Made by a program: the position numbers and the translations under genes. A DNA stretch of 64,000 nt from Salegentibacter salegens. GTDB lineage: Bacteria; Bacteroidota; Bacteroidia; Flavobacteriales; Flavobacteriaceae. Of the stretch, positions 21,458 through 25,308 are shown piece after piece. The notes under the pieces were generated by a model. The model had not been told where the DNA came from, ran no database searches, and saw only the letters and a program-made list of their open reading frames with translations. The stretch is taken from contig NZ_LT670848.1 in NCBI RefSeq assembly GCF_900142975.1, positions 2,418,001 through 2,482,000 on the forward strand, written 5' to 3'. The stretch's first letter is position 1, and the number at the start of each line of letters is the position of its first letter.

Positions 21458-21814
21458 ATGGAAAATTCAGAGACACACCACAGCCACGAAGCGAACAGCA
21501 CTTTTGATCCTAAAACGATAGCTATTATTGCTTATTTAACCATTATCGGCCTGGTGGTAGCTTTTGTTTTAAACAATGATAAAAAAGACGAATTTGCAGC
21601 ATTTCATATTAAACAATCCCTGGGATTGGTAATAATTAGTTTAGGACTTTTTATAATTGGAATGATCCCAATTCTTGGATGGATTCTAAGTTTTCTCGGT
21701 TCAATTTTCTTGCTGTATTTATGGATTATGGGGCTTATTAATGCCGTTAATCATAAAACAAAAACGGTTCCCATTTTAGGGCACCAGTTTGAGAAATGGT
21801 TTGCCAATATCTAA
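21458..21814 (+). CDS. DUF4870/Tic20-like membrane protein
   Basis: A 118-residue protein with a His-rich N-terminus (ETHHSHEANS) and three hydrophobic helices between residues 22 and 102. The motif DEFAAFHIKQSLGLVI before the second helix is typical of DUF4870 proteins related to the Tic20-like group. Function is unknown. It is the middle gene of a three-gene run, starting 11 bases after the DUF4412 gene. Confidence 0.82.
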   Translation: MENSETHHSHEANSTFDPKTIAIIAYLTIIGLVVAFVLNNDKKDEFAAFHIKQSLGLVIISLGLFIIGMIPILGWILSFLGSIFLLYLWIMGLINAVNHKTKTVPILGHQFEKWFANI

Positions 21815-21817
21815 AAA

Positions 21818-22555
21818 ATGAAAGCATTAACCATAAGCTTATTTACCTGTTTTCTATTTAGCTTCAATGCTATTTCTCAAAATACCATTGAAGCTAATGT
21901 TGAAAACTGGGAATATGGCACTGCCAAAATTGGAGTGCTGGATTTTATATCCGGAAGCACCCAAAAATTTGGCAGCATAGATAAAAACGGAAATCTAAGC
22001 ATTGAACTGCAGCCTAATTTTCTTCAAAAAATGAAAGAACAAATGGAGAAAGAACAGGAAAAATCCCCTGAAGGTTGGAAGGCTTCCTTAAAAACCGTTT
22101 CCAAAACTTTCTCCTGCTTTTCTGGCGATTTAACCTATAAAAATGGGGACACCAATCTTAGCAGTTTACCCAAACAGCTTGTGGTGTTTAAAAATGAGAA
22201 AGAAATTTTGGGCATACTTATGCCCGCTTCCAATAAAGCTATTGCAGATTTTTTCTTTTCAAATAGCGAAGAAAATAGCACCACCGGCAAATATTTGGAG
22301 TGGACATATCTCGATGAACCTGCAACGGTAAAAGGTACTTGTAACACCACTACTTTCACACAAGCCGAAAATGAAAGTTTTAAAGCTGCAAAAACTTACT
22401 CTTTAGATTTGAAAAAAGGCTGGAATCTTATTGAATATCACATTACTGAAGTTTTTGAAGATTCTACCGGACAAATCTATCCTAAAACAACCGAGATTCA
22501 ACTCATTAAAAATATCCCATCAGAAATAAACTGGTATTTTTCAGCCGAAAAATAA
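21818..22555 (+). CDS. Secreted protein of unknown function
   Basis: A 245-residue exported protein. The signal peptide is residues 1-20, ending FNAISQ. The mature protein begins with a short beta domain (TIEANVENWEYGTAKIGVLD) and ends with KKGWNLIEYHITEVF and INWYFSAEK. No family recognised. It begins 3 bases after the DUF4870 gene, so all three are one operon and may act together at the envelope; that is inference from spacing only. Confidence 0.72.
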   Translation: MKALTISLFTCFLFSFNAISQNTIEANVENWEYGTAKIGVLDFISGSTQKFGSIDKNGNLSIELQPNFLQKMKEQMEKEQEKSPEGWKASLKTVSKTFSCFSGDLTYKNGDTNLSSLPKQLVVFKNEKEILGILMPASNKAIADFFFSNSEENSTTGKYLEWTYLDEPATVKGTCNTTTFTQAENESFKAAKTYSLDLKKGWNLIEYHITEVFEDSTGQIYPKTTEIQLIKNIPSEINWYFSAEK

Positions 22556-22803
22556 TATTCTAATTTATACCACGGGAAGTCTTTCGCTTGTAAAATTTAA
22601 CATTTGTTTTATCACCTACTTTTCAACATTCATAATTTATAAATTTCGCGGCACTAGTAGTATCAGGCTACACAAACTGCTTGTAATTAGTTTTTTGTGT
22701 TGAAAACTTTAGAAAAAAATTAAACAAAGCATATTAGCAGAACGATAAATTTTTCTAATATTTGTTACTGAATTAATAAAATAAACAGTAACCCCCCACA
22801 TAA

Positions 22804-23736
22804 ATGAGTAAACAGGAACCCTTGCTACGGGACAACAAAGACAGATTTGTAATATTTCCTGTGAAACACAACGATATCTGGGATGCCTATAAAGCTATTG
22901 AAGCTAACTTCTGGACTTCGGGACAAATAGATATTCAAAAAGATTTATTAGCCTGGCAGGAATTAAATGATGAAAAACGCCTGTTTCTAAATAAAATACT
23001 CTGTTTAATACTTTCTTCAGAAAAAAACCTAAGTGGGTTAACCAGAAAAGTTAGCAAAAAAATTAATTTTCCTGAAGCCCGATCCTTTCTCGATCTGCAA
23101 CTCGTCATGGAAAATACACATACAGAAGCTTATAGTATGTGTTTAAATTCCCTTTTTAATACAACCCAACAAGAAGAAATTTTTAAAGAAATTGAAGAAA
23201 TCCCTGCTACTGCTGCCAGGGAAGAATGGATACAAAAATGGTCAAACAGTACTTCTTTTGCTGAAAAATTAGTAGCTCTTGCCACAGCAAAAAGTATCTT
23301 TTCCTACAGTAGTTTTGCTACTATTTTCTGGATAAAAAATTGCGGTTTAATACCGGGGCTTTGTTACACCTACGAAACGATTTACCGGGATAAAGCCCTG
23401 CATCGCGATTTCACAACGCAATTATTTAGAGATCATCTTTTAGAGGAAATTTCAGATAAAAAAATACAGCAAATTATTGGTGAAGCCGTAGCTATAGAAA
23501 AAGAATTCATTGCTAAATATCTTCCTTTAGATTTAATTGGGCTAAAAACGAAATCTCTAACCGAATACCTGGAGTATGAAGGCCGAAGGTTGTTTACCGA
23601 TTTAATGCTAAACCGAAGCTTAAAAGAAGAACATTTAGCGAAAGAAAACTTAGTAAATAAGCGAGCAAAAGATTTTTCTCAAACTAATAAAACAGATAAA
23701 GATTTTAATAAAATCAGTAAAAAAACTGATTTGTAG
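22804..23736 (+). CDS. Ribonucleotide-reductase R2-like protein with altered metal site
   Basis: A 310-residue ferritin-like protein alignable over most of its length with class I RNR small subunits (NrdB). Kept: Trp37 (FWT), Glu103 and His106 (MENTH), Tyr110 at the radical-tyrosine position, Asp196 and His200 (YRDKALH). Changed: the first Asp ligand is Glu73 (LSSEK where R2 has AASDG), and two Glu ligands are Lys163 (ATAKSIF for AxxEGIF) and Lys197 (RDK for RDE). The C-terminal tail lacks the radical-transfer Tyr and R1-binding tail and ends in Lys/Asp/Asn-rich sequence. Known class Ie R2 proteins also replace ligands (QSK or VPK) and are metal-free; this E-E-H-K-K-H set differs. It is followed by its own terminator and then dgt. 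Either a novel R2 variant or a repurposed, catalytically changed paralogue. Confidence 0.88.
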   Translation: MSKQEPLLRDNKDRFVIFPVKHNDIWDAYKAIEANFWTSGQIDIQKDLLAWQELNDEKRLFLNKILCLILSSEKNLSGLTRKVSKKINFPEARSFLDLQLVMENTHTEAYSMCLNSLFNTTQQEEIFKEIEEIPATAAREEWIQKWSNSTSFAEKLVALATAKSIFSYSSFATIFWIKNCGLIPGLCYTYETIYRDKALHRDFTTQLFRDHLLEEISDKKIQQIIGEAVAIEKEFIAKYLPLDLIGLKTKSLTEYLEYEGRRLFTDLMLNRSLKEEHLAKENLVNKRAKDFSQTNKTDKDFNKISKKTDL

Positions 23737-23739
23737 AAA

Positions 23740-23787
23740 CTGGAACCGGCGTCATGCTCCCCAATGTGACGCTGTTTCAGTTTTTTA
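23740..23787 (+). terminator. Intrinsic terminator of the R2-like gene
   Basis: GCGTCA (23749-23754) pairs with TGACGC (23767-23772), extended by CTGGAAC with GTTTCAG, followed by TTTTTTATT. It lies directly after the stop codon, so dgt probably has its own promoter. Confidence 0.85.
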
Positions 23788-23955: not shown

Positions 23956-25308
23956 ATGATGAACTGGGAGCAACTTCTTTCCTTAAAACGTTTTGGAGAC
24001 ACTCATAAACGTTTACGAAAAGAGCAAAACGAAACCCGATTAGGTTTTGAGGTAGATTACGACCGTATTATTTTCTCATCGGCTTTTAGAAGTTTGCAGG
24101 ATAAAACTCAGGTAATTCCGCTTTCTAAAACCGACTTTGTGCATACCCGCTTAACGCATAGCCTGGAAGTTTCAGTAGTTGGCCGATCTTTAGGTAGACT
24201 GGCAGGACAAAAAATTCTGGAAAAACATCCGCAACTTGAAAAAAGCCACGCTTATAGAATGAATGATTTTGGAGCTATTGTTGCCGCTGCGGCATTGGCT
24301 CACGATATTGGGAATCCGCCTTTTGGCCATTCAGGAGAAAAAGCTATCGGGGAATATTTTAGTCACGGTAATGGAAAACGCTTCAAAGATGAACTTTCCC
24401 CAAAAGAATATCAGGATCTTGTAAAATTTGAAGGGAACGCCAACGGTTTTAAAATCCTTACCCAAAACAAACCGGGCATCGCCGGGGGGCTTCGGCTTTC
24501 TTATGCTACTTTGGGAGCTTTTATAAAGTATCCTAAAGAATCTTTACCACATAAACCCACGCAAAATATAGCCGATAAAAAATTTGGGTTTTTCCAGACC
24601 GAAAAAGAAATTTTTGAAGAGGTTGCTACCGAACTCGGCTTACTAAAAACCGGAAAAGACGGCGATGTGAGTTATTACCGGCATCCGCTGGCATTCCTGG
24701 TAGAAGCAGCCGATGATATTTGTTATACCATAATAGATTTTGAAGACGGTATTAACCTGGGACTTATAGATGAAGATTATGCGCTGGAATATCTTATAAA
24801 ACTGGTAAAAGACAATATAAACACCGGCAAATATAATAGCCTCACCAATACAGCAGATAGGTTAAGTTACCTAAGAGCCCTGGCCATAAATACATTAATT
24901 ACCGAAGCGGTAGAAACTTTTTTAAAGAATGAAGATGCAATTCTTGCGGGAAATTTTCATCAGGGATTATTAGATAAGAGCAAATACGAAGCTCAAATAG
25001 ACGATATTATTAAAATTAGTATTGAAAAAATCTACCAGAGTGAAGAGGTAATTAGCAAAGAAATTGCCGGCTATAAAATGCTTTCGCACCTTTTAGATAC
25101 TTATACCGAAGCTTTACTTTCGCACAAAGCAGAAGAAAATTCTAATTTTAATAAACTGGTATTAAAATCGGTTCCAAATTTAGCTTATCTACAGGATGAG
25201 AATTCGGTTTACCGGCGCTTATTGGAAATTTGCTCGCACACCGCTTCGTTGACTGATGGTTTTACCGTTGCTTCTTTTGAAAAATATAAAGGAGGAATTA
25301 AATTATAA
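23956..25308 (+). CDS. dgt: dGTP triphosphohydrolase (dGTPase)
   Basis: A 450-residue HD-domain enzyme that splits dGTP (or other dNTPs) into deoxynucleoside and triphosphate. The metal site is visible as RLTHSLEV and AALAHDIGNPPFGHSGE, with a later AADDICYTIIDFEDG. The N-terminal FSSAFRSLQDKTQVIPLS segment is typical of the Dgt subfamily. The start is one of two adjacent ATG codons (23956 or 23959). It follows an R2-like gene, so both neighbours relate to dNTP pools. Confidence 0.94.
   Translation: MMNWEQLLSLKRFGDTHKRLRKEQNETRLGFEVDYDRIIFSSAFRSLQDKTQVIPLSKTDFVHTRLTHSLEVSVVGRSLGRLAGQKILEKHPQLEKSHAYRMNDFGAIVAAAALAHDIGNPPFGHSGEKAIGEYFSHGNGKRFKDELSPKEYQDLVKFEGNANGFKILTQNKPGIAGGLRLSYATLGAFIKYPKESLPHKPTQNIADKKFGFFQTEKEIFEEVATELGLLKTGKDGDVSYYRHPLAFLVEAADDICYTIIDFEDGINLGLIDEDYALEYLIKLVKDNINTGKYNSLTNTADRLSYLRALAINTLITEAVETFLKNEDAILAGNFHQGLLDKSKYEAQIDDIIKISIEKIYQSEEVISKEIAGYKMLSHLLDTYTEALLSHKAEENSNFNKLVLKSVPNLAYLQDENSVYRRLLEICSHTASLTDGFTVASFEKYKGGIKL

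Follow-up and report, generated by a model that had tools for sequence, protein, structure and literature searches.

An orphaned descendant of class Ia NrdB with lysines at its metal site, conserved in Salegentibacter after loss of nrdA

What keeps an R2-like ribonucleotide reductase (RNR) protein in a genome when lysines replace two of its metal ligands and no gene for an R1 partner lies beside it? The question is raised by an open reading frame in a 64,000-nucleotide stretch of the Salegentibacter salegens genome (NCBI RefSeq assembly GCF_900142975.1, contig NZ_LT670848.1, positions 2,418,001 to 2,482,000, forward strand), hereafter the window. The original prediction allowed three answers for its product, here termed pseudo-R2: a new metal-free R2 group, a decoy that regulates the true R1/R2 pair, or a repurposed ferritin-like protein.

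Results

The pseudo-R2 reading frame is intact and sits where it was first placed (positions 22804 to 23736, plus strand). Residues 14 to 270 match the Pfam family PF00268 (Ribonuc_red_sm) with 226.1 bits against a cut-off of 33.6, and two other Pfam matches both fall under their cut-offs. In the PDB it is closest by sequence to RRM2 and RRM2B of mouse and human, followed by yeast Rnr2 and Rnr4, which marks the protein as being of the eukaryote-like class Ia type. None of the NCBIfam R2 or R2lox models that match it reaches its cut-off: the class Ib NrdF model TIGR04171 scores 59 bits versus 355 and the best R2lox model 29.9 versus 194, far below what would be expected of R2lox proteins, which resemble pseudo-R2 as a possible use of the R2 fold outside ribonucleotide reduction and carry a Mn/Fe site (PMC3824934, in the part available). 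Identity to canonical NrdB is 35 to 42%, versus 86 to 100% among the canonical proteins compared. A literature search, with subscription papers mostly outside its reach, returned no title describing such an R2; RNR appears together with Salegentibacter in one phage paper, judged by title, and the words lysine, inactive and orphan are absent from PMC9531940.

We read the site positions from a phmmer alignment to mouse/human-type R2 and from a MAFFT alignment with 36 canonical Flavobacteriaceae NrdB proteins. Both confirm the residues first assigned to the site (E73, E103, H106, Y110, K163, K197, H200), and W37 and D196, which we take to be the E. coli positions W48 and D237, are likewise kept. 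The coding sequence and its diagnostic codons are as follows:

22804..23736, plus strand: pseudo-R2 coding sequence, 310 aa, class Ia nrdB descendant (ORF, Pfam, alignments, orthologues)
23020..23022, plus strand: Glu73 codon, first Asp-ligand position (phmmer and MAFFT alignments)
23110..23121, plus strand: Glu103 to His106 codons, ExxH ligands kept (phmmer and MAFFT alignments)
23131..23133, plus strand: Tyr110 codon, radical-Tyr position, Phe in the three clade B orthologues (MAFFT alignment)
23290..23292, plus strand: Lys163 codon, Glu ligand position, Asn in clade B (MAFFT alignment)
23392..23394, plus strand: Lys197 codon, Glu ligand position, Lys in 13/13 orthologues and in G254 (alignment)
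23401..23403, plus strand: His200 codon, ligand kept (MAFFT alignment)
23674..23676, plus strand: Phe291 codon, C-terminal radical-transfer Tyr position (MAFFT alignment)

The ligand set is therefore E-E-H-K-K-H versus the canonical D/E-E-H-E-E-H, and Arg195, Asp196 and Lys197 form an RDK motif whose Asp and Lys are present in 13/13 orthologues. The tail had been described as lacking both the radical-transfer Tyr and the R1-binding end, and this description holds: Phe291 occupies the Tyr position and the protein ends in KKTDL in place of the canonical xDxDF.

Pseudo-R2 orthologues occur in 13 of the 15 Salegentibacter genomes and fall into two clades: clade A, with ten members at 64 to 100% identity (the window's protein included), and clade B, with three at 36 to 40% (S. 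flavus, a Salegentibacter metagenome-assembled genome, and G010). The gene is absent from G002, whose 22% match is its other R2, and from G012, and is hence dispensable; absences in draft genomes lean on reported completeness. The site string across W37, the first Asp position, Glu103, His106, Tyr110, Lys163, Asp196, Lys197 and His200 reads W-E-E-H-Y-K-D-K-H in 10/10 clade A proteins, W-Q-E-(Y,H,Y)-F-N-D-K-H in 3/3 clade B proteins, and W-D-E-H-Y-E-D-E-H, plus the transfer Tyr, in 36/36 canonical Flavobacteriaceae NrdB. In the transfer-Tyr column, where the alignment is loose, the clade A proteins (window included) have Phe in five, Leu in four and Tyr in one, and none of the three clade B proteins has Tyr. 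Canonical ligands are intact in all 77 canonical nrdB loci read (36 + 40 + 1), which represent 69 of the 219 family genomes having both nrdB and nrdA plus eight more from the genus of G254 (see below), 40 of them drawn from the lower end of the R2 matches listed. Because K197 is found in 13/13 and K163 in 10/13 genus orthologues (MAFFT alignment) and canonical relatives are normal in 77/77, the lysines are neither a sequencing error nor a local mutation. Orthologues with normal Asp/Glu ligands, which would have spoken for such an error, were not found in the genus. Nor is the gene without a conserved family; that family is confined to Salegentibacter as far as searched, and a scan of genome contigs with exact peptide patterns, on which its result depends, returned ten pseudo-R2 loci, all from Salegentibacter.

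Relatives on mobile elements were also sought. Among the 15 matches listed of 31 plasmid records, none is more than 36% identical, and a viral-contig scan with only two exact peptide patterns, a weak probe, gave no pseudo-R2 relative. Four phage R2 proteins have canonical sites and DF ends, and we rejected a phage origin or a phage-type tail on these grounds. Two uncultured phage genomes (L180 and L183, 642 and 636 kb) encode canonical-site R2 proteins that share 67 to 72% identity with the two Flavobacteriaceae NrdB used for comparison.

We then compared the gene neighborhood with that of canonical nrdB. In close genera the order is MarC / DUF3109 / (DUF4412) / nrdB / nrdA / dgt in all six loci mapped, which were picked for closeness or adjacency; in distant genera dgt may lie tens of kilobases from nrdB (e.g., G040). 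All 13 pseudo-R2 loci have DUF3109 upstream and dgt downstream, and no trace of nrdA was detected at any of them at E≤1e-4. Pseudo-R2 descends, without having moved, from the class Ia nrdB usual in the family, and nrdA has been lost. The neighboring dgt had been pointed out as also acting on dNTP pools; the nrdB-nrdA-dgt order of close canonical relatives explains the adjacency (13/13) more plainly.

23956..25308, plus strand: dgt-type HD protein, downstream neighbor, gene order inherited (profile search, locus comparison)

Neither nrdB nor nrdA is present at this locus in the two Salegentibacter genomes without pseudo-R2 or in G113 from another genus. Across a sample of 299 Flavobacteriaceae genomes (R2 at E≤1e-30, NrdA at E≤1e-150), 219 encode both R2 and NrdA, three NrdA only, four R2 only and 73 neither, so that an R2 seldom occurs unaccompanied by its R1. 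R2 alone was seen in G254 and in the three Salegentibacter sampled, in which no class Ia NrdA was found at that threshold; all four have degenerate sites.

Most Salegentibacter loci also carry, ahead of pseudo-R2, genes for a DUF4870-like membrane protein (under the Pfam cut-off) and a protein of 245 aa with no Pfam match (21458 to 22555 in the window). The DUF4870-like gene occurs in nine of ten clade A loci (one partial), in 3/3 clade B loci and in G002, and was not found at G012, G113, G254 or the six mapped canonical loci.

Noncoding elements around pseudo-R2 are also shared with canonical nrdB:

22698..22707, plus strand: upstream box TGTTGAAAAC, also upstream of canonical nrdB (motif comparison)
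22619..22628, minus strand: inverted copy of TGTTGAAAAC with one mismatch (motif comparison)
22756..22767, plus strand: TAATATTTGTTA, a conserved element between box and start codon, which we take to be a possible -7 element (upstream comparison)
23735..23785, plus strand: hairpin (CCCCAA loop, T run) immediately 3' of the stop codon, likely terminator, resembling one that separates nrdB from nrdA at some canonical loci (folding)

The box lies about 95 to 130 bp upstream of canonical nrdB, with at most one mismatch, in 76 of 77 loci (36/36 within 400 bp, 39/40 within 220 bp, and 1/1); 28 of 36 loci have two copies in tandem at 12-bp spacing. Pseudo-R2 genes have an exact copy at -98 to -108 in 13/13 loci, tandem in clade B, and 12 of the 13 have an ATATTTG/ATCTTTG element closer to the start (by eye). 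The 3' hairpin (-23.9 kcal/mol, z -7.0) is present at six of ten clade A and 3/3 clade B loci; a CCCCAA motif lies within 110 bp past the nrdB stop, before nrdA, in 17 of 36 canonical loci and in L042, often between inverted repeats (by eye), and may mark a terminator or processing site. The feature after the nrdB stop was also noted in L142, L143 and L144, and the box upstream of nrdB in L142 to L147 and others across Flavobacteriaceae. As sequence features, box and hairpin support vertical descent, and their retention suggests that pseudo-R2 may still be expressed.

The window's genome has 30 exact TGTTGAAAAC sites versus 13 for the pattern read backwards. Those within about 110 bp upstream of ORF starts include the sites at pseudo-R2, a dnaB-like gene (89 bp, by eye) and a LacI-like regulator (101 bp); no enrichment of the box was seen at those starts of NrdJ and the second nrdB that were inspected. 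The NrdR-type box consensus has no match in the window. A DnaA-box identity for TGTTGAAAAC was considered and dropped, with no dnaA or origin recognizable at the contig ends, and at title level the literature offered nothing usable on the motif.

Pseudo-R2 is clearly under purifying selection. For the 45 clade A pairs, in many of which dS is close to saturation, median dN/dS (Nei-Gojobori) is 0.116; the eight closest pairs printed give 0.09 to 0.16 at dS 0.44 to 0.97, and clade B gives 0.11 to 0.15 (three pairs, G010 in two of them). Values at the same loci are 0.028 for dgt (45 pairs), 0.029 for DUF3109 (44 pairs) and 0.045 for DUF4412 (31 pairs with finite dS), the pseudo-R2 ratio being about four times that of dgt. 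None of the 13 copies has a stop codon inside the frame. With six clade A pairs pooled, pN/pS is 0.05 over alignment codons 1 to 40, 0.10 over codons 161 to 200, which include Lys163 and Lys197, and 0.28 in the last block, the loosest. Clade A has 139 invariant columns out of 310, all nine site columns among them; since four of those nine are invariant also in clade B and the canonical proteins, site invariance alone is weak evidence.

We also surveyed the remaining RNR genes of the genus. The window's genome encodes a class II NrdJ (TIGR02504, 576 bits, cut-off 400), an NrdE-prime-type R1 (TIGR02510, 732 bits, cut-off 602) and a second R2, matched best in the PDB by 6cwo and 8dq4 and nearly as well by 6cwp, a class Id protein (PMC8463856, in the part available). 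The two R2 proteins of this genome are remote from each other (23% identity over 166 residues). A full-length PF02867 match of 313 to 323 bits, named NrdJ by TIGR02504 in the two genomes tested (G000 and G010), is present in 15/15 genus genomes, making NrdJ the only RNR found in every one. That score is also the best among the 15, and none reaches the 731 to 738 bits of class Ia NrdA. In G010, estimated to be 100% complete, the search for class I and class II genes gave pseudo-R2 as the only PF00268 match and NrdJ as the only PF02867 match. A second PF00268 protein occurs in 11 of the 13 pseudo-R2 genomes, the exceptions being G010 and G013 (61% complete). NrdI (PF07972) was found in none of the 15 genus genomes and in three of 14 control genomes. 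In G012, a single-contig genome, a second nrdB/nrdA region appears twice, near both ends (G012:C1:11430-13904 and 4702867-4705497); one of the nrdB copies has two stops, and the doubling probably stems from overlap in the assembly or from recent duplication.

A second case comes from another genus. R2 matches were found in ten of the 12 genomes of the genus of G254 (the two without a match are 74 to 75% complete), and nine are canonical. In G254, the tenth, R2 precedes dgt with nrdA gone, the site reads W-H-E-H-Y-E-D-K-Q, Phe replaces the transfer Tyr and the R1-binding end is lost. Its Glu-to-Lys change falls at the Lys197 position (GAA in G021, AAA in G254). At 59 to 65% identity the protein is closer to canonical NrdB than is Salegentibacter pseudo-R2, and it lacks the upstream TGTTGAAAAC box, both of which point to a younger event. 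Its dN to genus-mates is 0.24 versus a median of 0.018 among the mates, at dS near saturation, and it may be a decaying copy. In the R2 tree, where branches are very long, G254 groups with canonical NrdB (support 96) and not with clade A or B; this placement and the otherwise canonical genus indicate an independent case.

Within Salegentibacter, clades A and B agree in ten of 26 doubly derived columns, and both share the DUF4870-like gene with G002. A dgt plus DUF3109 tree keeps them apart: A joins G002 (support 100), and B joins G012 (85) and next the canonical G278 (65), with a deeper node at 39. Judged from these sequences, Salegentibacter pseudo-R2 would count as one or two origin events and G254 as one more.

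Discussion

Taken as a whole, pseudo-R2 is probably a retired NrdB kept after deletion of nrdA, a metal-free, noncatalytic, partner-binding scaffold or regulator. It shares the locus, upstream box and fold family of its direct ancestor, the eukaryote-type class Ia NrdB that has nrdA next to it in Flavobacteriaceae, and differs from it in two Glu-to-Lys changes and one Asp-to-Glu change, in the lost transfer Tyr and R1-binding end, in the missing nrdA and in its low identity. In the Salegentibacter line nrdA was deleted, and deoxyribonucleotides now come from NrdJ, joined in most species by another class I R1/R2 pair (of class Id type in the one genome tested). In the orphaned NrdB, Lys replaced two of the three Glu ligands, and the transfer Tyr and the R1-binding tail disappeared, while purifying selection continued and the ancestral upstream box was retained. 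The protein would still fold as an R2; its Lys ammonium groups may pair with Glu73 and Glu103 at the old two-metal site, Lys197 (and in clade A Lys163) supplying the positive charge that metals once gave the buried Glu residues, and so form a stable metal-free core. We infer this salt-bridged core from homology. Pseudo-R2 would no longer make or pass a radical and would bind a partner as scaffold or regulator, most likely in DNA-precursor metabolism. A radical-donor role appears very unlikely, given that two of six ligands are Lys, that there is no class Ia R1, that the transfer Tyr is mostly gone and that the R1-binding end is gone. Clade B has Phe at the radical Tyr under similar constraint, which implies that selection keeps a noncatalytic R2-fold protein. 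Counter-evidence comes from clade A, where Tyr110, Trp37 and Asp196 are kept and are not obviously needed by a wholly nonradical protein. As for the partner, NrdJ is the one RNR found genus-wide, yet two of 15 genomes manage without pseudo-R2. Among the three answers first proposed, the repurposed ferritin-like protein is the one now favored.

One alternative is an active, metal-free R2 resembling class Ie, with a Tyr110 radical (perhaps DOPA) and Lys197 as proton donor, serving some R1. Both have lost carboxylate ligands, and clade A keeps the radical Tyr together with Trp37, His106, Asp196 and His200 in 10/10 proteins. The Glu-to-Lys change at RD[E/K] matches Lys213 of the Mesoplasma R2, beside Arg211 and Asp212, and in calculations that lysine forms a salt bridge with Asp88 (both from the available part of PMC8902622). 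Class Ie R2 proteins (NrdF2) are of class Ib origin, have the VPK or QSK set and require NrdI, according to the parts of PMC11846895 and PMC8463856 available. They usually have nrdI/nrdE nearby, keep the Asp and have three Glu replaced by V/P/K or Q/S/K, whereas pseudo-R2 (E-E-H-Y-K-K-H) has two Glu replaced, both by Lys, as the original prediction held in setting it apart from VPK and QSK, and has Glu for the Asp, a class Ia origin and a genus without detected NrdI. On account of the NrdI result (0/15), the class Ia ancestry and the Asp-to-Glu change, we do not file it as class Ie. The first Asp is bonded to DOPA in class Ie (PMC7615503, in the part available), and it is Glu here; nrdA is absent from the locus and from the three genomes sampled (E≤1e-150), with no class Ia-like PF02867 score in the 15; nine of ten clade A proteins have Phe or Leu in place of the tail Tyr, with the xDxDF end gone; and the radical Tyr is Phe in all of clade B. 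An active enzyme of this kind is thus improbable, and the option of a new metal-free R2 group is weakened accordingly by the missing NrdI and class Ia NrdA, the lost tail and the clade B Phe. A new metalloenzyme is a still fainter prospect: site 1 (Glu73, Glu103, His106), whose side chains are carboxylate or His in 10/10 clade A proteins, would hold one metal while Lys163 and Lys197 replace the second, but two lysines beside the site disfavor a cation. In clade B the first position is Gln in 3/3 and the His position is Tyr in 2/3; these changes, under similar constraint, make a metal site unlikely as the shared function.

Yeast Rnr4, a ligand-poor R2 that pairs with its catalytic paralogue Rnr2 and serves R1, offers another model, since it too is an R2-fold protein with an incomplete metal site kept by selection. 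Most pseudo-R2 genomes do have a second PF00268 protein with which such a helper could pair or which it could regulate, but in G010 neither another R2 nor a class I R1 was found, hence no class I partner (G013 is alike at its lower completeness), and the two R2 proteins of the window's genome are remote relatives, unlike the paralogues Rnr2 and Rnr4. Eukaryotic beta-prime R2 subunits unable to assemble a cofactor do exist (PMC3824934, as far as available), and we nonetheless give this helper role a slim chance; G010 likewise weakens the original suggestion of a decoy regulating the true R1/R2. A decoy aimed at phage, a dead R2 that binds a phage class Ia R1 in a host that could afford it for want of nrdA, is speculation and highly improbable. 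Genes for both R2 and R1 are found in the Tenacibaculum phages pT24 and Larrie, and the four phage R2 proteins share 67 to 82% identity with the two canonical Flavobacteriaceae NrdB used for comparison; however, all four keep the DF end that the KKTDL terminus of pseudo-R2 does not resemble, and no defense gene is recognizable among the annotated neighbors (by annotation only). Lastly, pseudo-R2 might be a slowly dying relic, with selection relaxed after nrdA loss and the frame as yet unbroken. It evolves faster than its neighbor genes, has diverged far more from canonical NrdB than canonical proteins have from one another and is missing from two genus genomes, and G254, with its box and C-terminal end lost and its raised dN at near-saturated dS, might be a case of decay under way. 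Yet the low dN/dS of the closest clade A pairs, a pN/pS of just 0.05 over the first 40 codons, the exact box in 13/13 loci and 13 copies free of internal stops, where a frame drifting at such dS should hold some, make a relic unlikely.

A retired NrdB with a noncatalytic role raises a broader and more tentative idea. Flavobacteriaceae NrdB may have, or readily gain, a second job that needs neither NrdA nor a radical; after nrdA loss that job alone would keep the gene, and a Lys at the class Ie position would close the metal site, giving a metal-free R2 regulator or scaffold. This would have begun at least twice at one locus, in Salegentibacter and in G254. We consider it possible, though doubtful.

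RNR subunits would be expected to persist solely as functional pairs, and of the 226 sampled genomes with either half, 219 have both. In Salegentibacter, selection retains one half in the absence of the other, and in G010 no class I RNR was found. If a noncatalytic job for pseudo-R2 is true, the same job may hide in ordinary NrdB. The recurrence of a Glu-to-Lys change at the position of the class Ie Lys, in proteins very probably devoid of radical chemistry, suggests that such a change may first stabilize an empty metal site, and this would offer a testable route to the origin of metal-free class Ie.
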